Assembly (NCBI RefSeq): GCF_000515355.1
Contig: NZ_KI911725.1
Location: 12,216-48,615, forward strand
Reading direction: 5' to 3'
Source: Promicromonospora kroppenstedtii DSM 19349
GTDB lineage: Bacteria > Actinomycetota > Actinomycetes > Actinomycetales > Cellulomonadaceae
DNA: 36,400 nt
Below, piece by piece: positions 7,946-26,273 of the stretch. The position numbers and the translations under genes are program-made. Position 1 is the stretch's first letter. Every line of letters begins with the position of its first letter. The notes under the pieces are model-generated. The model was not told the origin of the DNA. It did no database searches and was given only the letters and a program-made list of their open reading frames with translations.

Positions 7946-7973
7946 GAGCACCGCAACAGAAACGCAACAGATT
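7946..7973 (+). repeat. Possible integrase arm-type site, left copy
   Basis: A 28-nt stretch ending in ACGCAACAGATT matches 30022-30049 at 25 of 28 positions in the same orientation. Both copies lie inside the island, 52 nt (left) and 150 nt (right) from the att cores. The internal repetition of GCAACA suggests a protein-binding site such as an arm-type site. It overlaps the upstream part of the excisionase frame. Confidence 0.4.
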
Positions 7974-8063
7974 GGGCCCTTGAGCGACCTGTTCGAGCCG
8001 GATCTGGAGTTCGGGTACGGAGTGCGCTGGAGCACTCTGGAGGAAGGCCTACACCTATGGTGC

Positions 8064-8309
8064 ATGGACGCCTTCACCACATCTGAGAGCGGCCGGCCCG
8101 ATGTGGGCCTGGAGCCGCTGCTGAGCACCGAGGACCTGGCGGATTATCTTGGGATACCCGTCGCCACCCTCCAGGACTGGCGTGTGGACCACAAGGGTCC
8201 ACGCGGCATCATCGTCGGCCGCCGCGTCAAGTACGCCGTGAGCGACGTGCGTGCGTGGATCGAGCAGCAACGCGAGACACGCCCCGGCGACCACACGGGC
8301 GGGCGGTGA
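8064..8309 (+). CDS. Excisionase / AlpA-type helix-turn-helix protein
   Basis: An 81-residue protein with a MerR/AlpA-type DNA-binding domain (HTH_17). LLSTEDLADYLGIPVATLQDW is followed by a wing with GRRVKYAVSDVRAWIEQQR, the usual form of actinobacterial excisionases that direct an integrase toward excision. The ATG at 8064 is taken as start; a GGAGGAAGG box lies about 18 nt upstream, which is far. The frame is also open from a TTG at 7944, which would add 40 residues and overlap the repeat at 7946-7973. It ends 5 nt before the integrase fragment, the normal xis-int order. A general regulator of the same fold is possible. Confidence 0.72.
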   Translation: MDAFTTSESGRPDVGLEPLLSTEDLADYLGIPVATLQDWRVDHKGPRGIIVGRRVKYAVSDVRAWIEQQRETRPGDHTGGR

Positions 8310-8314
8310 TCGGC

Positions 8315-8557
8315 ATGGGACGACCGCGCACACCAGTGGGCACCTTCGGCGATATCTGGTTCGCAGACCTGGACAACGGAAGCGTCGAAGCTCGCACCTG
8401 GTACCGCGACGACGACGGAAAGTCGCGCCAGGTGCGGGCCGTTGGTCCTTCCGAGACGGCAGCAAAGATCGCGCTCAAGGCCGCGATCGCGGTCCGGGGT
8501 AGCCGTTCCGGCCTCGGCGAGCTGACCCGCAACAGCTCGTTTCCCGGCGGCGCCTGA
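8315..8557 (+). pseudogene. Truncated tyrosine integrase (N-terminal arm-binding domain only)
   Basis: Eighty residues remain. GRPRTPVGTFGDIWFADL and TWYRDDDGKSRQVRAVGPS match the N-terminal arm-DNA-binding domain of actinobacterial phage/ICE integrases, which normally continue to about 380-450 residues with the catalytic Arg-His-Arg-Tyr domain. Here the frame stops after NSSFPGGA, where the core-binding domain should begin, and no catalytic part is seen in any downstream frame. The fragment may still bind arm sites, but strand exchange is not expected. It lies directly after the excisionase gene, and its stop overlaps the ATG of a small open frame (TGATG). Confidence 0.65.
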
Positions 8558-8682
8558 TGGAGCGTGTCCCGGTGGTCCTGGCCGACGCGCGAGCCCGCGC
8601 CGCTCAGATCCGGCACGAGGCGGACGAGCGAGCACGACGGGATGCCATCGAGCGGGCCTCCGAGCCGCACCGCGGCTGGTAG
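8557..8682 (+). CDS. Small hypothetical protein (41 aa)
   Basis: ATG at 8557 overlaps the stop of the integrase fragment. The 41 residues are rich in Ala, Arg and Glu (ARARAAQIRHEADERARRDA) and are predicted to be helical. I recognise no family. Its position at the point where the integrase is cut off suggests it may be an artefact of the deletion or an inserted small gene. The TGATG overlap and G/C-rich third positions are the only evidence for translation. Confidence 0.35.
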   Translation: MERVPVVLADARARAAQIRHEADERARRDAIERASEPHRGW

Positions 8683-8750
8683 GAATTTCCACAACCGGGC
8701 AATGCTCGGAGCCCTTGAACCTGCCGGTGTCGAGCACTCCCCGCCGGCCG

Positions 8751-8788
8751 GTATCCACAGGTTTGTCCCAGAGTTATCCACAGGTTTC
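8751..8788 (+). repeat. Two DnaA-box-like direct repeats
   Basis: TATCCACAGGTTT occurs at 8752-8764 and again at 8775-8787. The second copy contains the perfect DnaA box TTATCCACA (8774-8782); the first has GTATCCACA (8751-8759). The spacing is 23 nt, about two helical turns, inside a 243-nt gap without genes. They may be remains of a replication or transfer origin of the element. Confidence 0.45.
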
Positions 8789-8925
8789 AGGCTGTTTCAC
8801 GGCGTGGCTCTCCGGCACGGGAACGGGTCGGTAACGTCGCCACCCAGGACCGGCGCCGGTCGCGAGCGTCGGCGGTCTGGCCGTGGTCGCCGTGATGGAT
8901 GGGCACCGTAACGAGGGCGGATGTG

Positions 8926-9150
8926 ATGGAACGGATCTGGCTCGACGTGCCGTTCGAGGAGAAGGACGAAGCCAAAGAGCTCGGTGCAAGGTGGGCACCG
9001 GACGCGAAGCGGTGGTTCGCCCCACGCCCCGGGATGGCCCGGCTGGAACGCTGGGCCGCGCTGCCGGACGTCCCAGACCTGCTGCCCGGTGAAGACCGGT
9101 CGCTCGGGTCGGGGCTGTTCGTCGATCTGGTGAGCTGCGAGTCCAGTTGA
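8926..9150 (+). CDS. DUF5710-domain protein, C-terminally short
   Basis: Seventy-four residues beginning MERIWLDVPFEEKDEAKELG, then ARWAPDAKRWFAPRPGM and LPGEDRSLGSGLFVDLV. This is the compact DUF5710 module common on actinobacterial plasmids and integrative elements, often at the front of larger primase-like or nuclease-like proteins. In relatives I know of, the chain continues past GSGLFVDLV; here it ends four residues later (SCESS), so it may be the truncated N-terminal part of a longer ancestor. The ATG at 8926 has a GAGGG box about 9 nt upstream. Its stop overlaps the next start (TGATG). Function unknown. Confidence 0.6.
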   Translation: MERIWLDVPFEEKDEAKELGARWAPDAKRWFAPRPGMARLERWAALPDVPDLLPGEDRSLGSGLFVDLVSCESS

Positions 9151-9314
9151 TGGCCGCCCTGGAGCAACTCGCTCGCGAGCGAGAACTACACGAAAGCATG
9201 AATGGTGAGCTCACCGCCGCCAACGAGGTCAACCGCCAGCTCGTGCGCGACCTCACCGCGGCGAAGGAGAACGAACTGCTGCTGCGCCAGCGGCTCAGCG
9301 CCCGCCGGAAGTAA
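9150..9314 (+). CDS. Small coiled-coil protein (54 aa)
   Basis: The ATG at 9150 overlaps the stop of the DUF5710 gene, implying translational coupling. The 54 residues (MAALEQLARERELHESMN followed by Leu/Glu/Asn heptads and ending RQRLSARRK) look like one continuous amphipathic helix or coiled coil. No family is recognised. Small helical proteins of this kind are common on mobile elements. The coupling and the lack of internal stops in a high-GC frame support it; length alone would not. Confidence 0.45.
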   Translation: MAALEQLARERELHESMNGELTAANEVNRQLVRDLTAAKENELLLRQRLSARRK

Positions 9315-9553
9315 TACCGCGTGCAGTCGACGTGAGCGGAAACCTCGCACACGGGCGACTCGACCCGCCACGCTTGATCGCCGGAACGCGTCGGAGACGC
9401 AGCAGCACTTCGACGTTCCCGATTCGCATACGTCGAATTTGTCGGTGGTGGCCCACCCTGGGGTGCAGTTCATCGTCCTGCTCCGAGCGTGAACCTCGGA
9501 GCCCGCCAGCCCGACTACAGAGATGACACGCGACGAGCGCGAAGGGAGGCGAG

Positions 9554-10096
9554 ATGACCGACGAGCTCCTGGTGGTCCGGGCCCAGTTGGGTAGCCGGTC
9601 CGCACTGGAGGACCTGGTGACGCGATGGCAGCGGCCGGTTTGGCTGTACGTGCGGCGCATGCTGGACAGCGAGCGCGCCGACGACGTCGCCCAGGAGGCG
9701 TGGATCGCGGTCGTGCGAGCGCTACCTCGGCTTCGCGAACCGGACCGGTTCGCGCCGTGGCTGTTCACGATCGTGCGACGGGCTGTGCTGAATCGGCTGC
9801 GCGACCAGTACGCCGACCGGCACGACCTGGTCGGCGGACCCGATCGGGGGGCGTTCGACCGGCCTGACGACGCCGTGCCGGACGCAGTGGACGAGTTGGT
9901 GGACCGGGCCGAGATGATCGATCGTCTGGCCGGCCTGCCGGTACTGGAGCGCGAGGTGCTGGTTCTGCACTACCTGGAGGACCTTTCGGTCCAGGACTGC
10001 GCGCAGGTCTGCGGAGTCCCCTCGGGGACCGTCAAGTCACGACTGAATCGTGCGCGCCGTCTGCTGCGCGAGCACGTCGAAGGAGAGGTGAGCTGA
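9554..10096 (+). CDS. ECF-type RNA polymerase sigma factor
   Basis: A 180-residue sigma-70-family protein with region 2 at about residues 8-75 (DDVAQEAWIAVVRALPRL and FAPWLFTIVRRAVLNRLRD) and region 4 at about 122-170 (LPVLEREVLVLHYLEDLSVQDCAQVCGVPSGTVKSRLNRARRLL). There is no C-terminal extension, unlike the ECF41 proteins farther right. The start at 9554 follows an AAGGGAGG box. One nt separates it from the next gene, a four-helix membrane protein that may be its anti-sigma partner, though no zinc-binding anti-sigma motif (HxxxCxxC) is visible there. The upstream 239 nt contain no gene and may carry its promoter. Confidence 0.92.
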   Translation: MTDELLVVRAQLGSRSALEDLVTRWQRPVWLYVRRMLDSERADDVAQEAWIAVVRALPRLREPDRFAPWLFTIVRRAVLNRLRDQYADRHDLVGGPDRGAFDRPDDAVPDAVDELVDRAEMIDRLAGLPVLEREVLVLHYLEDLSVQDCAQVCGVPSGTVKSRLNRARRLLREHVEGEVS

Positions 10097-10097
10097 C

Positions 10098-10583
10098 ATG
10101 TCGAATGAGGAACCCCGGGCATCAGTACCCGAGGTCGTCGCCGGGCTCAACGAGACGCTCTCGCGGACCGGACGCGTGCGCGCGGTAGGGACCTTTGTGA
10201 TCGGGCTCGCGGGCGCCGTCTTCGTGGCAGCCCTGTGGTGGACCGAGCCTGGGCCGCTACCGGTCCTCACGCAGGTGACCTTCGGGCTGCTCATGGTGTT
10301 CTGCCTCACCTGGGCCGGCTACGGGACGTGGCTGCTACGGACGCGCGTCGCGCTGTTCGCCACCGACCGCGTGGTGGCCGCGTGGATCGGCCTGGCGGCA
10401 TCGGCGCTCACCGGCACCATGCTGGTGATCCTTGCCGTCCAGCGCGGATCCGGGACCTGGGGCCCGATCATCGTCGCGGCGGCTTTCATGGCGGTCGCGA
10501 TCACCCTGGTAGTCCGCGCCCACACCCACCGCACGGCACTGCTCCGCCGCGAACGAACCCTCAATGGAAAGCAGGAGTCATGA
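10098..10583 (+). CDS. Four-helix membrane protein, possible anti-sigma partner
   Basis: One hundred sixty-one residues: a hydrophilic N-terminus of about 28 residues followed by four hydrophobic spans (about 31-52, 56-80, 90-113, 121-140) and a basic tail. It starts 1 nt after the ECF sigma gene and its stop overlaps the ATG of the next small gene (ATGA), so the three form one operon. Position suggests that it senses membrane signals or restrains the sigma factor. No recognised anti-sigma domain is visible, so that role is inference. The family is unknown to me. Confidence 0.8.
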   Translation: MSNEEPRASVPEVVAGLNETLSRTGRVRAVGTFVIGLAGAVFVAALWWTEPGPLPVLTQVTFGLLMVFCLTWAGYGTWLLRTRVALFATDRVVAAWIGLAASALTGTMLVILAVQRGSGTWGPIIVAAAFMAVAITLVVRAHTHRTALLRRERTLNGKQES

Positions 10584-19139: not shown

Positions 19140-20264
19140 CTAGCGGGCGTGACCGAAGTACATGAGCTCCCAGATCGCCTCGTCGGTGTGCGTCTCCAGC
19201 ACGTGCCCGTCCGGCGACTGTCGCTCGATCCGCAGCTCGCCGACGAACCGCAGGTAGGCGCCGTCGAACCGGATCAGGCGGGCGGCGGTCTTGCGCCACC
19301 CGCTCATCTGCTCCAGGAAGGTGTTCGCGAGCAGGTCGCGGTGCTTGGTGAAGGTGACGATGTACCGGTCAGTCCCGTCGTCGTAGATGTACGTGGTCAC
19401 GGTGGCGACGGGCTTGCCCGTCTTCGGGTCGGTGCGGATGTCGGTCGCCTCGAAGTTAACGAGCGAGGCGTCGTCGGCGACGATCTGGCCGTCTTTGGCG
19501 AGCATGAAGATCGGGATGGGCTCGTATCCGTACTTCTCGTGCGCCGTGATGTACGACGCGATCACCGAATACGGTCCGGCCTGGCCGCGTGCCCAGTACC
19601 AGTCGTGGATGATCGACATCATCCCGACGTTGCCCCAGTTGTGGTCGTGGTAACCGATGCCGGTGATCTCGGTGCGGGTGCCTTCGACCTCGTAACTCCC
19701 GCGGACCGACCCCTGGGGCACGGAGGGCAGCCAGGAGAACTCCAGGTCCCGCTCGGCGCCGAAGACGAGGTAGCCGGTCTGCGGGCGCCAGGGGCGCACC
19801 TGCGCGTCGAGCGTGACGTCCACCTTGATGCCGTCGACCTCCGCGTGGATCTCGTAGTGCGACAGGTCACCGGCGAACGTGTTGCCGTCGATCACCACGT
19901 CGGCGCCCTTGGTCGAGGCGGAGAACGAGGCGGCCGGGAAGTCCTTGACGATGGCGTAGCTGCGCCCGTCGGGCAGGTCGAGGTTGAGCCGGATCTGCGG
20001 GCTGAGCGGCTTCTTCGGCGCGGAGAGGTCCTTGGTCATGAGAATGACGACGAGCTTGGCTCCGTTGTCCAGGTGCGCGTCGAAGTACCACCACTCGTAC
20101 GTGCCGCGACGCCCGTCGGTCCGTGCGCCGTCCTCCCACGTGGCGACCTGCTCGCGGGCGAGGCCGAGGCGTCGGAAGTCCGCGTCGTCGTGCGCGATGC
20201 TCGCGCGGTGCGGTGTGCCTGGGCCGCGGTCGGCGGTTCGACTGGACGTCTTTTCGACACTCAT
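19140..20264 (-). CDS. CrtC/AttH lipocalin-like protein
   Basis: A 374-residue protein with two lipocalin-like beta-barrel halves of the hydroxyneurosporene synthase (CrtC)/AttH type. TYEWWYFDAHLDNGAKLVVIL (about 55-75), the central GIGYHDHNWGN and DWYWARGQAGPYSVIASYI are family hallmarks. Related proteins act on carotenoids or other hydrophobic substrates, but no carotenoid genes are nearby, so the reaction is unknown. No signal peptide is seen. The start at 20264 has an AAGGATC box; the frame is open upstream to 20354 but passes through the promoter. An ECF41-type promoter at 20313-20337 suggests it belongs to the regulon of the sigma gene just upstream. Confidence 0.78.
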   Translation of the reverse strand: MSVEKTSSRTADRGPGTPHRASIAHDDADFRRLGLAREQVATWEDGARTDGRRGTYEWWYFDAHLDNGAKLVVILMTKDLSAPKKPLSPQIRLNLDLPDGRSYAIVKDFPAASFSASTKGADVVIDGNTFAGDLSHYEIHAEVDGIKVDVTLDAQVRPWRPQTGYLVFGAERDLEFSWLPSVPQGSVRGSYEVEGTRTEITGIGYHDHNWGNVGMMSIIHDWYWARGQAGPYSVIASYITAHEKYGYEPIPIFMLAKDGQIVADDASLVNFEATDIRTDPKTGKPVATVTTYIYDDGTDRYIVTFTKHRDLLANTFLEQMSGWRKTAARLIRFDGAYLRFVGELRIERQSPDGHVLETHTDEAIWELMYFGHAR

Positions 20265-20312
20265 GGGTTGATCCTTCGTCTCGGTGAGGCACGAGTGCGC
20301 CCCATATATAAG

Positions 20313-20337
20313 GACGACGTGGCTCACCCAGGTGTCA
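20313..20337 (-). promoter_or_regulatory. ECF41-type promoter of the CrtC-like gene
   Basis: On the minus strand TGACAC (20332-20337) is followed after 15 nt by CGTC (20313-20316) and then CTTATA. The spacing and both boxes match the two promoters at 21309-21368. Confidence 0.5.
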
Positions 20338-20393
20338 GGACCGAGATGCCGCACAAGGAGTCGTGCTCGTCACATGGCAGGGAGCGTTATGAG

Positions 20394-21287
20394 CTAAGGC
20401 GTCTTCCAGGATGAGAGCTTTTCCGGGTTCAGCACCAGACGCACGTCAGTCACCACCCCTTCAGAGACATCGAGGGTCACGACACCGATGATGTGGCCCT
20501 CGTCCCAGATGGCGAAGCCGAGACCGTCGTGCGTCTCCTGCTCCAGCACGTCGCAGCCGGGGTACTTGTGCACGACCCCGGCGATGAACCGGGCCACCCG
20601 TTCAGCGCCGACAACCGGGTGGCGCGCGGCGGTGACGACCCCGCCACCATCGGAGCGGAGGACGGCGCCGGGGTCGAGGACCGTGATCAGCGCCTGGACG
20701 TCGCCACTGCGCGCGGCCGAGGCGAAGGCTCGCACGACGTCATCGTGCTCACGTCTCGTGGCGCGCCGATCTCGTGCCTGCTCGACACGGTGCCGGGCAG
20801 AGGAGGCCAGCTGGCGGCAGGCGCCTGGGCTGCGGCCCACCGTGGCAGCGATCTCGTCGAACGGGACCGCGAACACGTCATGCAGCACGAAGGCGACTCG
20901 TTCGGCAGGCGTCATCGTCTCGAGCACCACCAGCAGCGCCGAACTCACCGAGTCATCGAGCGAGACCTGGTCGGCCGGGTCCAGCTCAGGGCGGGAGAAC
21001 ACCTGGGACGGCAGCGGCTCGGGCAACCAGGGACCCACGTACTCCTCACGCCGGGCACGCGCCGAGCCCAGCATGTCCAGGCAGATGCGGCTCGTGACGC
21101 GCTGCAGCCAGAAGCGCGGCGCCTGCACGGCCACACGCTCCTCCCTGCCCATGCGCCACCAGCGCACGTAGGTCTCCTGGACGGCGTCCTCGGCCTCGGC
21201 GATCGTGCCAAGCATCCGGAACGCGAGCGACATCAGGTGCCGCCGCTCAGCGAGTGCCTGGTCGATGGCCGGTTCGTCGTTGGTCAT
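20394..21287 (-). CDS. ECF41-type sigma factor with NTF2-like C-terminal domain (SigJ-like)
   Basis: A 297-residue sigma factor: region 2 (about 12-78), the ECF41 linker YVGPWLPEP (83-91), region 4 (about 118-172, LETMTPAERVAFVLHDVF and IAATVGRSPGACRQLASSAR), then an NTF2/SnoaL-like domain (about 185-290). The two motifs that define this regulatory extension are present: DGGG at 213-216 and NPEKL at 287-291. In the ECF41 group this domain replaces a separate anti-sigma factor and modulates activity. The start at 21287 follows a GGGAGG box. It shares a symmetric promoter region with the divergent NmrA-like gene; such oxidoreductase genes are the usual ECF41 targets. Confidence 0.93.
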   Translation of the reverse strand: MTNDEPAIDQALAERRHLMSLAFRMLGTIAEAEDAVQETYVRWWRMGREERVAVQAPRFWLQRVTSRICLDMLGSARARREEYVGPWLPEPLPSQVFSRPELDPADQVSLDDSVSSALLVVLETMTPAERVAFVLHDVFAVPFDEIAATVGRSPGACRQLASSARHRVEQARDRRATRREHDDVVRAFASAARSGDVQALITVLDPGAVLRSDGGGVVTAARHPVVGAERVARFIAGVVHKYPGCDVLEQETHDGLGFAIWDEGHIIGVVTLDVSEGVVTDVRLVLNPEKLSSWKTP

Positions 21288-21308
21288 GGGAACCTCCCGC
21301 CCCTAGAA

Positions 21309-21368
21309 GACGAGACAGCACGACCGAATGTCAGGCGAACACCTGACATCACGCACGACCACGTCGTC
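21309..21368. promoter_or_regulatory. Symmetric divergent ECF41-type promoter pair
   Basis: The palindrome ATGTCAGG-CGAACA-CCTGACAT (21328-21349) supplies a TGACAT box to each strand. Minus strand: TGACAT 21328-21333, 15 nt, CGTC 21309-21312. Plus strand: TGACAT 21344-21349, 15 nt, CGTC 21365-21368. The identical spacing on both strands argues for use by one sigma factor. The published ECF41 consensus is close (TGTCACA and CGTC). Confidence 0.55.
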
Positions 21369-21377
21369 CTACTAGGC

Positions 21378-22145
21378 ATGAACTCTCACTCTCGAAGCAT
21401 GAAGGTCGCCGTGGCCGGCGGCACCGGCACCGTCGGACGACACGTCGTTGACGCACTGCGCGCCGCGGGACACCAGCCGGTCGTGCTCACCCGAGCCTCT
21501 GGCGTCGACCTGCTCGACGGCGCCGGCCTCGCCGATGCGCTGCGAGGAATCGACACCGTGGTAGACGTCTCGTCGACGAACACTGCCTCGGCCAAGAAGT
21601 CTCTGGCGTTCTTCGAGAGCGTCACACGCAACCTGCTTTCGGCCGAGCGAAAGGCCGGCGTGGGCCACCACGTCGCGCTGTCCGTGGTCAACGCGGCGAA
21701 GGTCCCTGCCAGCTATTACGCGGGCAAGGTCGCCCAGGAGAAGATGATCATGGCGGTACCCGGCGGCTGGTCTCTGCTGCGCGCCTCGCAGTTTCATGAG
21801 CTCACCGAGGTCCTCATCCGTCAGGGCCGGGTGGGGCCGGTGCAGATCGTCCCGCAGATGCGCGCACAGCCGATCGCGGCGGTCGAGGTTGCGGCCGAGC
21901 TGGCAAGCATCGCCCTGGGTGAGCCTCGCGGGCTGGTGCCGGACCTCGCGGGCCCGCGTCCGGAACGTGTGAGCGACATGGTTCGCCGTTTCCTGCAATC
22001 GACCGGCAGGCCGCGCCCGGTCCTGGAGGTGTTCGTGCCGGGTGCCTGGGGGCGCGGCATGCGCGAAGGTACGTTCCTGCCAGACCCGGGCACACGCCTG
22101 GGCCAGCAGTCCTTCGACGAATGGCTCGGGACCGCCGCATGCTAG
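21378..22145 (+). CDS. NmrA/SDR-type NAD(P)-binding oxidoreductase
   Basis: A 255-residue atypical short-chain dehydrogenase. AVAGGTGTVGRHVVDALRAAGH (about 10-31) is the dinucleotide-binding loop; DTVVDVSSTNTAS and SYYAGKVAQEKMI (Tyr/Lys of the active-site type) follow. Proteins of this NmrA-like kind often pair with ECF41 sigma factors. The start at 21378 lies about 10 nt after the predicted -10 box, so the mRNA may be leaderless; an ATG at 21399 is the alternative. The gene is divergent from the first ECF41 gene and converges on the second across a strong stem-loop. The likely role is redox or quinone-related; the substrate is not known. Confidence 0.9.
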   Translation: MNSHSRSMKVAVAGGTGTVGRHVVDALRAAGHQPVVLTRASGVDLLDGAGLADALRGIDTVVDVSSTNTASAKKSLAFFESVTRNLLSAERKAGVGHHVALSVVNAAKVPASYYAGKVAQEKMIMAVPGGWSLLRASQFHELTEVLIRQGRVGPVQIVPQMRAQPIAAVEVAAELASIALGEPRGLVPDLAGPRPERVSDMVRRFLQSTGRPRPVLEVFVPGAWGRGMREGTFLPDPGTRLGQQSFDEWLGTAAC

Positions 22146-22165
22146 TTGGCGCCAGTTGCCCGCGT

Positions 22166-22206
22166 CACGATGCCGACGTCGCCCCTGCGGCGACGTCGGC
22201 ATCGTG
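22166..22206. terminator. Bidirectional stem-loop terminator
   Basis: Perfect 18-bp arms (22166-22183, 22189-22206) with a 5-nt loop CCTGC between the converging NmrA-like and second ECF41 genes. No T tract. Confidence 0.72.
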
Positions 22207-22219
22207 GCCGTCGGCGCGT

Positions 22220-23089
22220 TCAGGAGGACTGCACCGAGCCGAGCTTGTCGGGATTGCGGACCAGATAGATACCGTCGATCACGCCCTCACCAGAGCTCAC
22301 GGTCGCCATGGCCAGCAGCTCATCGCCCTGCTCGATGAGAAGACAGGACCCGCCGTTGGCGTCGGAGATCTCGAAGGTCGCGCCCTGTCCGAACTGCCGG
22401 AGGGCTCCGAGCAGGAAGCGGGCGACTCGGTCGCGGCCGGTGACGGGCTGACGGGCGGCGGTGACCTTGCCGCCACCGTCGGAGATGCTGACGACGTCCT
22501 GGGCGAGAAGCCGTTCGAGCTCGTCGAGGTTGCCGGAGCGGGCTGCGGAGAGGAAGGCGTCCAGCAGGCGGGAGATCTCCTGGTGCTGCGCGGGTGCCCG
22601 TCGTTGGCCGGCGAGGTGGTCGCGGGCACGTCGGGCGAGCTGCCGAGCGTTGGCCTCACTGGTCTCGAGGACCTCGGCGATCTGCCGGAAGGGGTAGTCG
22701 AACGCCTCACGCAAGACGTACACGGCTCGCTCGCTCGGCGAGAGCTGTTCCATCAGTGTCAGCATCGCGACACTGAGCGCCTCGGCGCGCTCGGCTCCGA
22801 GGGACGGGTCGTCGCCAGTCGGGACGAGCTCCGGGAGCCACGGGCCGATGTAGGACTCCCGGCGCACCCGGGCCGACGTCACGGCGTTGATGGACAGCCG
22901 GGTGACGGTCGTGACCAGGAACGCTTCCGTGTTCAGGACGACGGACCTGTCGGTCGCCTGCCAGCGAAGCCACGCGTCCTGGACGATGTCCTCGGCGTCC
23001 GCCACGGTGCCGAGCATGCGGTAGGCGATTCCGAACAGCCGCCGCCGGTTGCTCTCGAATACCTCGGCCGCCTGGCTCAGCTGCGACAC
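22220..23089 (-). CDS. Second ECF41-type sigma factor (SigJ-like)
   Basis: A 289-residue sigma factor with the same architecture as the gene at 20394: region 2 (about 10-75), linker YIGPWLPEL (80-88), region 4 (about 112-162) and an NTF2-like domain with DGGGKVTAARQPV (from 204) and NPDKL (279-283). The GTG at 23089 is chosen because AAAGGA lies 6 nt upstream; the frame is open to 23251 but the extra part lacks family similarity. The two paralogues are clearly diverged, so this is not a recent duplication. Transcribed toward the NmrA-like gene. A possible TGACTA-N15-CGTG lies upstream but is weak. Confidence 0.92.
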   Translation of the reverse strand: MSQLSQAAEVFESNRRRLFGIAYRMLGTVADAEDIVQDAWLRWQATDRSVVLNTEAFLVTTVTRLSINAVTSARVRRESYIGPWLPELVPTGDDPSLGAERAEALSVAMLTLMEQLSPSERAVYVLREAFDYPFRQIAEVLETSEANARQLARRARDHLAGQRRAPAQHQEISRLLDAFLSAARSGNLDELERLLAQDVVSISDGGGKVTAARQPVTGRDRVARFLLGALRQFGQGATFEISDANGGSCLLIEQGDELLAMATVSSGEGVIDGIYLVRNPDKLGSVQSS

Positions 23090-23217
23090 CGTAGTCCTTT
23101 CCGTCGGGTCAGCGAAGTTCACCTGCTTGCTCTCGACGAGTCTGCCGACGGTGGGCACGTTCTGCACGGGCACATAGTCACGTGCCGTCGACGAGCCTCG
23201 CCGAGACCGGAGCCCGG

Positions 23218-23748
23218 TCACACGGACGGCCTGCGGCGATAAGTAGCCCAAAGGGCGTAGGCGGTCGCGCTGAGCAGCGTGCCCACCAAGACGTACGCCA
23301 CGGCACGGAACCAGTCCGACCGTCCCTCTGTCAGCGGCACGTCCAAGGGGTTCGACTCCGGTGGGACGTTACCGACGGTGAAGCGGTAGCTCCCGTCGAG
23401 GGGGGCCCCGTCCGCGGACACGACGCTCCAGCGCACCTGATACCGCCCGTCGGGCAGTGCGGGGTCGAGCGCCTGCTCGACGCCGGTCGCGGTGACGAGG
23501 ACGGTTCCGTCCGCCCAGTCGCGATCGTCCTCGTCCTGGACCACGACGGTCGCGGTGGTGGCATCCGTCTGGATGTCCGAGGTGAAGGTCAGAGCAACCG
23601 AGGACGGCCGCCGCTCGAGAGCCTCGTTGTACGTGGGTTGCGCCGAAGCGACGGTCGTATGGGCCGAGGCCTGCCCCGCGCCCAGCGGTGAAGCGGACAG
23701 GCCCGCGACGATCAGGAAGGCGAGTGCGGCAGGTATTCGCTTGCCCAT
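23218..23748 (-). CDS. CopC-domain protein with C-terminal membrane anchor
   Basis: A 176-residue exported protein: signal peptide (1-29, cleavage after ASA), a CopC beta-sandwich (30-130) and a C-terminal transmembrane span (about 148-168) ending RRRPSV. Maturation would expose His30 as the N-terminal residue, as in copper-binding CopC proteins. The second conserved site, normally DGH in SADGHPxxG, reads SADGAPLDG here, so the second histidine ligand is replaced by alanine and copper affinity may be lost or altered. GGGAGAAG precedes the ATG at 23748. It is divergent from a membrane protein gene across a symmetric promoter region. No CopD or copper exporter is adjacent. Confidence 0.86.
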   Translation of the reverse strand: MGKRIPAALAFLIVAGLSASPLGAGQASAHTTVASAQPTYNEALERRPSSVALTFTSDIQTDATTATVVVQDEDDRDWADGTVLVTATGVEQALDPALPDGRYQVRWSVVSADGAPLDGSYRFTVGNVPPESNPLDVPLTEGRSDWFRAVAYVLVGTLLSATAYALWATYRRRPSV

Positions 23749-23804
23749 TGGTGCTTCTCCCGGTGACGACTGTTCTGCCGCCGCGAGGGCGGCGTCACCA
23801 CCTC

Positions 23805-23869
23805 AGACCGCACAGCGAACCTCGTTCGTGACAGATCCGGTGTCACGAACCGGGGTTGCTGCGCGGTCT
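23805..23869. promoter_or_regulatory. 65-nt quasi-palindromic divergent promoter region
   Basis: The left arm (23805-23833) and right arm (23841-23869) are inverted copies matching at 24 of 29 positions, around GATCCGG. Each strand reads TGTCACG, 16 nt, CGGTC, close to the TGTCACA/CGTC elements described for ECF41 promoters. Leaders of about 50 nt (CopC gene) and 80 nt (membrane gene) would result. A dimeric repressor site is the alternative reading of the central palindrome (10-bp perfect arms, 23824-23850). Confidence 0.5.
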
Positions 23870-23955
23870 TCGATGCAAGCCCGCGCCCAGATGGCGCAGA
23901 AACAGCGCCATCTCGCCGATGTGCGTGCGAGAACGCCTACCGAGGAGCCTGAACT

Positions 23956-24393
23956 GTGACGTTGATCATTCGCATCGCACTGGCCGTCCTGTTCGCCGAC
24001 GAGCTTGTCGTCGGGGCATGGAACGCCATCTCGCCCGAGACGTTTTACACCCACTTCCCGACAGTCGATCTCACACCACCGTTCAGCGAGCACTACGCGA
24101 GGGACTTCGGCGGCGCGACCCTCGGCATCGCCCTGCTGCTCGGTATCGCCATGGTCCGGCCCAAAGCCCACTTCGTCGTCCCCGCGGCAATCGCGTACTC
24201 GATCTTCGCCGTACCGCACTTCTTCTACCACCTGGTCAACCTGGAGAACTTCACTCTCGGTGAAGCGATCACCCTGACTCTCGCCAACGGTGTTGTCGCG
24301 CTCCTGGGGATCGGCGTCATCCTGCTCACGGCTGCCCGCGACCGACGGGCGGCGCGCGTCCAGGTCAACAGCGGAGTGCCGGCGAACCCGTGA
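23956..24393 (+). CDS. Four-helix membrane protein of unknown function
   Basis: A 145-residue protein with four hydrophobic spans (about 1-20, 50-68, 75-95, 105-128) and a basic tail. The loop after the first helix carries SPETFYTHFPTVDLTPPFSEH, a pattern seen in small actinobacterial membrane proteins annotated only as hypothetical. The GTG at 23956 has GAGGAG 8 nt upstream. Its stop overlaps the GTG of the following sigma-2-less ECF41-like gene, so the two are translationally coupled and probably act together at the membrane. It is divergent from the CopC gene. Confidence 0.78.
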   Translation: MTLIIRIALAVLFADELVVGAWNAISPETFYTHFPTVDLTPPFSEHYARDFGGATLGIALLLGIAMVRPKAHFVVPAAIAYSIFAVPHFFYHLVNLENFTLGEAITLTLANGVVALLGIGVILLTAARDRRAARVQVNSGVPANP

Positions 24394-24986
24394 CCGCGCT
24401 GCGTGGACGAGACGCTGACGCGGCGATCCTCGACTACGTCCTGCGTGCCGCGCTGCGAGCCCTTGGCCCCCAGGAAGCCGCCGCTCTGCTTCTCCTCGGT
24501 GCCTTCCCGCACGACACCGCTCTCGTGGCCACGTTCGTGGGTTGCTCCGAGGACGATCTTGCAGGGTTGGTCGCCACCGCTCGGGCGAGGCTGCGGCGCG
24601 ACCGTGCCGCGCTGGTCACCGAACCCATCACGGCCCTCAGACAGCTCAGGTCGGCATGGCGCGGCGGGGACAAAGAGGCGGTCATCGGACTCTTGTCCGC
24701 TGACGTCGAGGTCTTCATCGATGGCGGCCCCGGTGCCGGGCGCCTGCGCGTGCCAGTACGCGGGTCGAGGGATGTGGCAGCTCTCCTGATCGACATCGTG
24801 GGCGGCGAGCCCCCTGCCCTGGAGTTGGCGGTCGTCGGCAGAGTGCCATGGCTCATCGGGCGGTACGACGAGCTGGCTGTCGGCTTTCTTGCGGCTGAGG
24901 TGCTCCACAAGTCCGTGACGCAGGTCTGGCTGGTCGCCGGCCCGGACAAGCCCAGCCGAGGCGACACACCACGAGGAGGGGGCTGA
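24390..24986 (+). CDS. ECF41-like protein lacking sigma region 2
   Basis: A 198-residue protein that aligns with the second half of the neighbouring ECF41 factors. Residues 20-72 (ALRALGPQEAAALLLLGAF, then LVATFVGCSEDDLAGLVATAR) correspond to region 4. Residues 80-190 correspond to the NTF2-like domain, with DGGPGAGRLRVPVRG (111-125) in place of DGGG and GPDKP (184-188) in place of NPDKL. Region 2, needed for core polymerase and -10 recognition, is absent, and only about 19 residues precede the region-4 part. It starts at a GTG overlapping the stop of the membrane protein gene. It could be a DNA-binding regulator, a decoy or a modulator of the two full ECF41 factors; it should not act as a sigma factor itself. 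Confidence 0.78.
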   Translation: MTALRGRDADAAILDYVLRAALRALGPQEAAALLLLGAFPHDTALVATFVGCSEDDLAGLVATARARLRRDRAALVTEPITALRQLRSAWRGGDKEAVIGLLSADVEVFIDGGPGAGRLRVPVRGSRDVAALLIDIVGGEPPALELAVVGRVPWLIGRYDELAVGFLAAEVLHKSVTQVWLVAGPDKPSRGDTPRGGG

Positions 24987-25043
24987 TCAATGGCCTGAGA
25001 AACGTCCCACCCTCACCGTCAGACAAACCATAGGAGTACCACC

Positions 25044-26273
25044 ATGAGACACAGCGCCAGGATCCGTCGCGCCGCAACAGGCGTTGCGATCGTCCTGATG
25101 GCCACCGCAACAACGCCCCTGACGATCCCGACCGTGGTCGAGGCCCGGACCGGACCCGGGGTCATCGCGGAGCGGCCGGAGCCGGACTCCGGTCGTCTCG
25201 GCGCGGGGACGCTGCTTACCGCCGAGGCCATCGACGAGCTCGACCCGTCCCTTGCAGCGGCCGCCGAACGAGCGGACCGCATCACCTATCGCTCGAAGTC
25301 GCTGTCCGGTCGCGACATCGTGGTCAGCGGCGCATTGCTCACACCCAAAGGAGCAGCGCCGGAGCACGGCTGGCCGATCGTGTCGTGGGCACACGGCTCC
25401 AGCGGCATCATCGACCAGTGCGCTCCCTCGACCGCGCTGAACGAGGACGGCAAGGTCGACCTGTTCGGCTACGCCGGGTTCGTCACACAGTTGCTCGAGG
25501 CCGGATACGCGGTAGCTGCGACCGACTATGAGGGACTGGGTACCAGGGGCGACCACCCCTACATCGTGGCCGACAGCGAAGGCCGCGGGGTCATCGACGC
25601 TGTGCGTGCGGCCATCCAGGCCGAGCCGACGCTCTCGAAGTCCTACTTCAGCGTGGGCCACTCACAGGGTGGTCAGGCCGCCATCGCCGCGGGCGAGATG
25701 GCGCACACCTACGGCAAGGGCCTGGACTTCCGCGGCACGATCGGGCTCGCACCGGTGACCAATGTCGGGCAGGCCTATTCGTACGGCTCACCTGGTCCTG
25801 TCGACCGCGGGTTCTACCTGCTGGCCCTCCACGGTCTGCGGACCGAGCATCCGGACCTGCGGTTCGACCAATATCTCGGGAAGCAGGCCCTGGACCTGCT
25901 GCCGCGGGTCAGCCAGGTATGCACCGACCAGATCTGGGAGGAGTTCTCCGCCGACCTCGGCACAGAGCTGAACGACTACCAGTTCACGCCTCAGAACTCG
26001 GCGGCGGCACTGCAGGTGCAGGGATGGCTGGACGAGCAGAGCGTGCCCAGAGGCAGGACCCCGGGGCCGATGCTGCTGCTGCAAGGTGACGCCGATCCTT
26101 CGATCAAGAAGGCGGTGACCCAGCAGGCTGTCCGTAACGCTCGCGGCAGTGGCACGGCCGCCGAGTTCAGGCTATACCCCGGTGCGGACCACTACACGGT
26201 CCTCGGTCCCCGGAGCGACGGTGGTGCCGCCGCCGACGTCGTTGAATGGCTCGACAGACACCGGCACCCTTAG
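25044..26273 (+). CDS. Secreted lipase-family alpha/beta hydrolase
   Basis: A 409-residue protein with an N-terminal signal peptide (basic start, hydrophobic core about 13-28, cleavage near VEA at 34). The catalytic domain matches the secretory lipase (LIP) family: WAHGSSG oxyanion region, GHSQGGQAA with Ser207, an acid at Asp349 or Asp351 (QGDADPS) and His383 (GADHYTV). DQCAPS and VCTDQIW supply cysteines that may form a disulfide. AGGAG lies upstream of the ATG at 25044. Probably releases fatty acids from extracellular esters. It is a single gene after the sigma-2-less gene (57 nt) and ends at a stem-loop. Confidence 0.9.
   Translation: MRHSARIRRAATGVAIVLMATATTPLTIPTVVEARTGPGVIAERPEPDSGRLGAGTLLTAEAIDELDPSLAAAAERADRITYRSKSLSGRDIVVSGALLTPKGAAPEHGWPIVSWAHGSSGIIDQCAPSTALNEDGKVDLFGYAGFVTQLLEAGYAVAATDYEGLGTRGDHPYIVADSEGRGVIDAVRAAIQAEPTLSKSYFSVGHSQGGQAAIAAGEMAHTYGKGLDFRGTIGLAPVTNVGQAYSYGSPGPVDRGFYLLALHGLRTEHPDLRFDQYLGKQALDLLPRVSQVCTDQIWEEFSADLGTELNDYQFTPQNSAAALQVQGWLDEQSVPRGRTPGPMLLLQGDADPSIKKAVTQQAVRNARGSGTAAEFRLYPGADHYTVLGPRSDGGAAADVVEWLDRHRHP

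Follow-up and report, generated by a model that had tools for sequence, protein, structure and literature searches.

A region-2-less ECF41 protein in Promicromonospora as a candidate partner of a complete ECF41 sigma factor

The window analysed here is a stretch of 36,400 nucleotides from the genome of Promicromonospora kroppenstedtii (genome G000, contig C164, positions 12216 to 48615). It encodes two complete ECF41 sigma factors, ECF41A and ECF41B. Another of its proteins, which we call the short protein, corresponds to the sigma4 and SnoaL parts of such a factor alone (Table 1). The ECF41 sigma factors are a widespread group in which a SnoaL domain is fused to the factor and for which there is no obvious anti-sigma factor (PMC3426412). 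Both complete factors match the sigma region 2, region 4 and SigJ/SigX4 models in profile searches, they share 38% identity, and their WLPE linker, DGGG and NP(E/D)KL motifs, described in the original prediction, are confirmed. The same prediction described the third protein as a region 4 joined to an NTF2-like domain with the variant motifs DGGP and GPDKP, and this is indeed its composition over 198 aa. Its gene follows a DUF4345 gene with a four-nucleotide stop/start overlap (GTGA), so that the proposed coupling to a membrane protein stands at the level of the genes; the membrane nature of the DUF4345 protein is presumed from a hydrophobicity judged by eye from the sequence.

Table 1. Features of the locus, with positions in the window.
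Feature	Position	Strand	Details
ECF41A, complete ECF41 sigma factor, neighbouring module	20394-21287	-	297 aa; WLPEP, DGGG, NPEKL
NmrA/SDR-like oxidoreductase, a COE-type neighbour in divergent orientation to ECF41A	21390-22145	+	
ECF41B, complete ECF41 sigma factor	22220-23251	-	longest frame, start codon uncertain; WLPEL, DGGG, NPDKL
CopC-domain protein, first gene of inferred CopC-ECF41B operon	23218-23748	-	
Divergent ECF41-like promoter pair (candidate)	23806-23868	both	+ arm 23841-23868, towards DUF4345-short; - arm 23833-23806, towards CopC-ECF41B
DUF4345 protein, hydrophobic, presumed membrane	23956-24393	+	28.0 bits, cut-off 26.5
Short protein, ECF41 sigma4 + SnoaL	24390-24986	+	GTG start, 198 aa; DGGP, GPDKP
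Secretory lipase, downstream of short	25044-26273	+	

The short protein (P0001) aligns with positions 111-285 of the 293 of the SigJ model (E 1e-13), and its SnoaL part scores 56.9 bits against a SnoaL model built from 51 ECF41s. It matched no Pfam family, region 4 included, and a sequence search of the PDB returned SigJ (5xe7) as the sole match (E 0.003). The AlphaFold model, built from six sequences and of modest confidence (pLDDT 65.8), was used for fold assignment only: its four top PDB matches are SigJ and SigG1 chains (E 8.3e-7 to 5.0e-6, with 5xe7 at the top; TM-scores 0.44-0.47 by query length), and the next ones are NTF2-like proteins, namely designed ones and ketosteroid isomerases. 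In a sequence alignment the short protein has zero residues at the WLPEP linker motif, and profile searches of its 198 aa revealed no receiver domain. With no region 2, no WLPEP linker, and altered sigma4 polar residues and DGGG/NPDKL motifs, a protein of this sequence cannot be a sigma factor alone.

The lack of region 2 is not a frameshift artefact. The original prediction had warned of a frameshift hiding region 2 and of close homologues with an intact region 2 in the same place. Translated searches (tblastn) of positions 23700-25100 found no sigma2 at E up to 1, nor was one found near the two orthologues of the short gene, and region 2 is absent from the protein in all three species that have it; a hidden region 2 was thus rejected, and close homologues with region 2 in that place were not found. 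Both orthologues, which together with the window copy we call the shorts, stand beside an orthologue of ECF41B. One is in Promicromonospora iranensis (G186, of the same genus; its locus L047, NZ_JAJQMN010000014.1, is contained letter by letter in the G186 stretch), is 69% identical to the window copy and overlaps its DUF4345 gene by ATGA. The gene order there is that of the window (ECF41A, NmrA, ECF41B, CopC, DUF4345, short), with genes for PCuAC and a DyP peroxidase inserted between CopC and ECF41B. The row of CopC, PCuAC and DyP before ECF41B spans 7970-10310 of locus L009 in this genome; the window has neither PCuAC nor DyP at this place. The other orthologue is in G475, a genome of another family of the same order, where it is 53% identical to the window copy and divergent from the ECF41B orthologue.

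Matches to the short protein at E 1e-15 or better occur in 2 of the 221 genomes of the family sample (G000 and G186), and in none of the 23 other genomes searched from the family of G475. In the order sample 8/396 genomes pass E 1e-13, with high scores only for G000 (400.8 bits) and G475 (241.8 bits); the other six matches score 53-64 bits and lie in frames of 325 aa or more. In the class sample 41/394 pass, the best non-orthologue scores 79.4 bits, and every listed frame except that of the window has at least 297 aa. A contig scan with the single short protein returned no relative, and with two sequences P. iranensis only. The plasmid search gave six Streptomyces records, all below 60% identity (among the five listed, three are annotated as sigJ and two are unnamed). 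A class survey for sigma2-less ECF41s, with the sigma4-SnoaL part of ECF41A as the probe, matched 66 of 118 genomes at E 1e-12 or better; among the at least 150 matches listed only two frames are shorter than 285 aa, and both retain sigma2 behind an in-frame stop. The short protein is not itself among the listed matches, so equally diverged sigma2-less cases could be missed. The ECF41 genes at loci L087 and L088 of other actinobacteria are broken by an in-frame stop within region 2.

The ratios of nonsynonymous to synonymous substitution (dN/dS, Nei-Gojobori) of the shorts are 0.24, 0.30 and 0.36 for the three pairs, to be compared with 0.24, 0.25 and 0.23 for ECF41B, 0.19 for ECF41A, 0.19 for DUF4345, 0.32 for NmrA and 0.41 for CopC. 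By this measure the short protein is under purifying selection. The sequence tree unites the shorts (100/100) on a stem of 1.57, separate from ECF41A and ECF41B. An origin of the short protein from either of these two thus found no support, and the position of the shorts in the tree is uncertain because of the long branch.

What the shorts kept and lost relative to complete factors was assessed with 51 full ECF41s as the reference (those among fetched loci that cover the factor at more than 100 bits, a set neither random nor independent), with residues numbered as in P0003 and columns called conserved when shared by at least 80% of the 51. Up to residue 217 (35 columns, three of which precede sigma4 proper) the shorts retain 16/21 hydrophobic, glycine or proline columns vs 2/14 polar ones (one-sided Fisher p 0.0004); in the SnoaL columns the figures are 9/16 vs 2/5, with no significant contrast (p 0.45). 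Lost from all three shorts are R175 (present in 51/51 full factors), R203 (48/51) and Q204 (47/51); the last two are the R-Q pair of the recognition helix, a helix in which the shorts have alanine or proline plus glycine. K336 (51/51) is replaced in two shorts and retained by the window copy alone. We align R175, R203 and Q204 tentatively with -35-contact residues of E. coli sigmaE (cf. Lane and Darst 2006). On this assignment, the promoter contacts of the shorts appear degenerate, as in PhyR-type sigma mimics. The shorts seem to be DNA-blind, with a sigma4 core mostly retained and most conserved polar residues lost. Of the roles that had been suggested for the short protein, that of co-repressor is thus weakened in a DNA-bound form. 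Residue C52 of the short protein is a cysteine in 3/3 shorts where 41/51 full ECF41s have an arginine (position 197), and it could possibly provide a metal or redox link in this copper-related cluster.

The complete factor tied to the short protein is ECF41B, since it is this one that shares the promoter and co-occurs with the short. Homologues of ECF41B at 74% identity or more occur in 3/42 genomes, which were picked partly for earlier matches, and these are the same genomes as those with the short; in the order sample they occur in 2/396, again genomes with the short (at most five candidates per genome were scored, and G186 has no row). The next ECF41B homologues have 56% identity or less.

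Between the CopC and DUF4345 genes lies the inverted repeat TTCGTGACA-N7-TGTCACGAA (23825-23849), around which TGTCACG-N17-GGTC reads in both directions. The published ECF41 signature is TGTCACA-n16-CGTC, with a spacer of 16 +/- 1 (PMC3426412). The divergent element can be recognised in each of the three species with the short. In G475 its arms read TGTCACG-N16-CGTC towards ECF41B and GGTCACG-N17-GGTC towards the short, and a blastn comparison with the window ranks the element first among the matches of the region (37/48, E 3e-6; 35/48, E 0.002, for the reverse match). The window has one palindromic pair, and 0/200 shuffles have any. Genome-wide, the exact TGTCACGAA-N15-GGTC has two occurrences in G000 and four in G186, all of them in divergent pairs and solely beside DUF4345 genes or their remnants. 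When up to one mismatch is allowed, G000, G186 and G475 have 11, 13 and 7 matches, and the reversed control gives 5, 2 and 2; part of these matches is thus due to chance. The second pair of G186 lies between a DUF4345 remnant (its first 41 residues), which adjoins a Pyr_redox_2 (pyridine nucleotide-disulphide oxidoreductase) gene, and an orthologue (80%) of the lipase found downstream of the short in the window (L090, 7741-9381). Lipase matches at E 1e-60 are present in 2/18 genomes, with one copy each. That the lipase is close to a TGTCACGAA promoter in both of these unlike arrangements speaks for a real promoter, and the lipase would be a member of the same regulon because its G186 orthologue lies elsewhere behind a TGTCACGAA promoter of its own. 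Similar elements are found at -58 of the DUF4345 genes of G068 and G089 (2/16 fetched loci) and, in G106, before an NmrA-like gene that precedes DUF4345. The short and ECF41B share, to judge from these sequences, a conserved divergent ECF41-like promoter-like element, whose weight would come from its conservation and near-uniqueness and not from the published consensus.

Detached SnoaL domains of a simpler kind are found in four other genomes: G441, G505 and G560, which have the three closest ECF41B homologues outside the genomes with a short, and G305. Each has a SnoaL-only frame of 120-125 aa whose start overlaps the last 11-20 nucleotides of the sigma gene and which is read in the +1 frame. 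The products match the SigJ/SigX4 models C-terminally (positions ~166 to 290) and retain the KL end. By eye, an NmrA-like gene follows the SnoaL-only gene at these loci (L102, L107, L108, L109). The 22 SnoaL frames without sigma2 comprise 14 copies of the three shorts, the four SnoaL-only ones and four edge or broken cases (L002, L024, L025, L041). Of the fetched ECF41B-like loci with 51-56% identity (L098-L109), 4/12 have a detached SnoaL at most about 1.5 kb away. In a SnoaL tree of 71 rows, from which pieces of less than 90 aa, duplicates and the broken or cut ECF41 frames L024, L025 and L041 were left out, the three shorts and the four SnoaL-only proteins group together (98/96), separately from the 64 fused domains. 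In repeat trees, which also left out L003, L054, L058, L074, L087 and L088, the support of this group was 95/91 without the shorts and 98/91 without the f19 rows. A common origin of the shorts and the SnoaL-only proteins is thus suggested, and it stays unproven given long branches and few columns. The SnoaL-only fragments of four genomes, taken with the shorts, indicate that a detached ECF41 regulatory domain next to an ECF41B-type factor is a recurrent arrangement.

We propose that the short protein may be a detached, DNA-blind regulatory half of an ECF41 factor that acts in trans on ECF41B, a reading that we hold to be as good as an even bet. Being seemingly DNA-blind, selected, and placed beside ECF41B with the same kind of promoter in three genomes, the short is probably a partner that tunes this factor; the binding to ECF41B and the direction of the effect are what we infer from the sequences. 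RNA polymerase with ECF41B would fire the divergent promoter both ways, so that the short would accumulate when ECF41B is active. It would then contact ECF41B via its SnoaL and/or sigma4 surface, or alternatively bind the ligand of the SnoaL domain that ECF41B itself carries, and would tune ECF41B, most likely downwards, as a negative feedback. The presumed regulon (CopC, DUF4345, the lipase, and in G186 also PCuAC and DyP) is suggestive of copper or oxidative envelope stress. The SnoaL-only partners that overlap ECF41B-like genes would represent this arrangement in a simpler form. More tentatively, ECF41B-type factors may have a dedicated family of trans-acting regulators made from the C-terminal half of ECF41, either SnoaL-only proteins from genes that overlap the sigma gene at its end, or DNA-blind sigma4-SnoaL proteins produced from the shared divergent promoter. 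If true, this would provide the first anti-sigma-like or co-sigma partner for the ECF41 group, and a regulatory half on its own chain would give a direct handle on the working of the SnoaL domain, apart from the sigma function. The original prediction of a decoy or modulator of the full factors was sound, because the short is a real, selected, polymerase-free half tied to a full factor, and it can be refined in that the tie is to ECF41B and not to ECF41A.

A number of observations weigh against this proposal. Shorts were found in three genomes only, and the large genome samples, where scoring covered the best 5-14 first-look candidates of each genome, may have missed weak copies. The G475 short is eroding and has lost DGG. 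G261 of DGGG and N333 of NPDKL, each present in 51/51 full factors, are replaced in 3/3 shorts. The NPDKL-type motif is said to dock the fused SnoaL at the WLPEP linker (PMC7730460), which makes docking of this kind in trans improbable; the short would have to dock via another surface. Exact TGTCAC-N15-18-CGTC is absent from the window, and the 9/11 agreement of the element with the published consensus is equalled by 23 of the 218,226 site-spacing combinations of the window, so that strict consensus scanning alone gives it no significance. Genome-wide, G475 has no exact TGTCACGAA-N15-GGTC, and the arm towards its short has one -35 mismatch. No detached SnoaL lies within about 1.5 kb of the factor at 8/12 fetched ECF41B-like loci. 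Finally, the SnoaL tree has only 118 columns and long branches, and leaving out the L102 row lowers its group support to 91/93.

Among the other readings, the short may be an effector, i.e., an NTF2-fold enzyme or ligand binder that is one more target of ECF41B and has a vestigial sigma4 part. The loss of the docking motifs and the rank of NTF2-like proteins just after SigJ and SigG1 in the structural matches fit such a role, as does the fact that the only ECF41 targets detected so far are COE enzymes and the factor itself (PMC3426412). Yet an enzyme would not need the sigma4 core that is mostly retained in 3/3 species, and in four genomes the gene that the detached SnoaL overlaps is that of the sigma factor itself and not part of a target operon, which leads us to regard the effector as unlikely. 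Partial truncation of the ECF41 extension raises activity ~20-fold and ~120-fold, and removal of the whole C-terminal extension from Ecf41Bli and Ecf41Rsp abolishes promoter activation (PMC3426412). Because fused extensions thus both restrain and enable the factor, a positive role is a serious rival: ECF41B might need the detached SnoaL or sigma4-SnoaL protein as a co-sigma subunit for full activity, in line with the co-occurrence of short and ECF41B and with the overlap of SnoaL-only and sigma genes. However, ECF41B has a complete SnoaL of its own with DGGG and NPDKL, and most fetched ECF41 loci have no detached SnoaL in their flank; we give this positive partnership a distinctly low probability.

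Three further readings carry much less weight. The long stem (1.57) and the G475 copy without DGG would suit a decaying, functionless remnant of an old ECF41 gene, but dN/dS values of 0.24-0.36, frames intact in three species and the joint retention of promoter, coupling overlap and partner make this very improbable. Region 4 is the reader of the -35 element in full sigma factors, and a repressor that competes for this element through its sigma4 part is conceivable; with R203, Q204, R175 and other polar positions lost in 3/3 shorts, we think it even less credible. A region 4 without region 2 also recalls a split sigma factor, in which the short would give its region 4 to a separate region-2 protein. 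Yet the recognition-helix positions are lost, and tblastn of the window with both region 2 segments returned ECF41A, ECF41B and a 13-residue match (E 0.15), so that we come close to discarding this reading.

ECF41A belongs to a neighbouring module without a promoter tie to the short: by eye, the stretch between it and the NmrA-like gene (21285-21400) holds another divergent repeat of the ECF41-like -35 type, TGTCAGG...CCTGACA, which has a different core and is partly kept in G186. A CrtC/Diels-Alderase-like lipocalin-type protein adjoins ECF41A (19140-20354, minus strand). The 16 kb fetched from G475 contain no match to ECF41A or DUF4345. A 31-codon frame with a DUF4345-like start overlaps the start of the G475 short (the starts are alike at 23/30 positions, E 0.27, and the likeness of the ends was judged by eye), and we would guess that it is a DUF4345 remnant. 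An ECF41 gene or pieces of one occur at 11/16 fetched DUF4345 loci (in L041 split over frames), and the short was not found there; this makes DUF4345 a repeated neighbour of ECF41 in its own right. A membrane anchor as the functional core was considered and lost ground, since G475 has short and ECF41B without a DUF4345 gene, and the membrane-linked modulator of the original prediction is weakened for this reason and by the presence of DUF4345 beside ECF41s where the short was not found.

That no such protein had been described agrees with searches of open-access literature: among the papers listed there, with PMC3426412, PMC7730460, PMC8999054 and PMC8103513, no description of a region-2-less ECF41 or of a detached ECF41 SnoaL partner was found. 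The closest systems are the ECF41 factors themselves (SigJ of M. tuberculosis, Ecf41Bli), which resemble the short in profile and fold of the SnoaL and, less clearly, the sigma4 part, in neighbours and in a candidate ECF41-like promoter, and differ from it by region 2, the WLPEP linker and intact sigma4 polar residues and DGGG/NPDKL motifs. In the split sigma factor SigO-RsoA of B. subtilis region 4 is also on a chain of its own (PMC8103513), whereas here there is no region-2 partner in the window, a full ECF41B is present and the sigma4 contacts of the short are lost. The alphaproteobacterial PhyR likewise has a sigma-like fold with degenerate promoter-contact regions and contacts a protein, as we presume for the short, but it is a response regulator that titrates the anti-sigma factor NepR (PMC8103513), and the short has no receiver domain and no known anti-sigma factor. 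The short would be an added case of a sigma factor fragment becoming a regulator. A further parallel is SigG1-RsfG of the ECF56 group, where a SnoaL-bearing ECF, a neighbouring protein regulator and copper-related targets are found together, as we presume for this locus; RsfG has no conserved Pfam domain (PMC7730460), whereas the short is a piece of an ECF41 factor.

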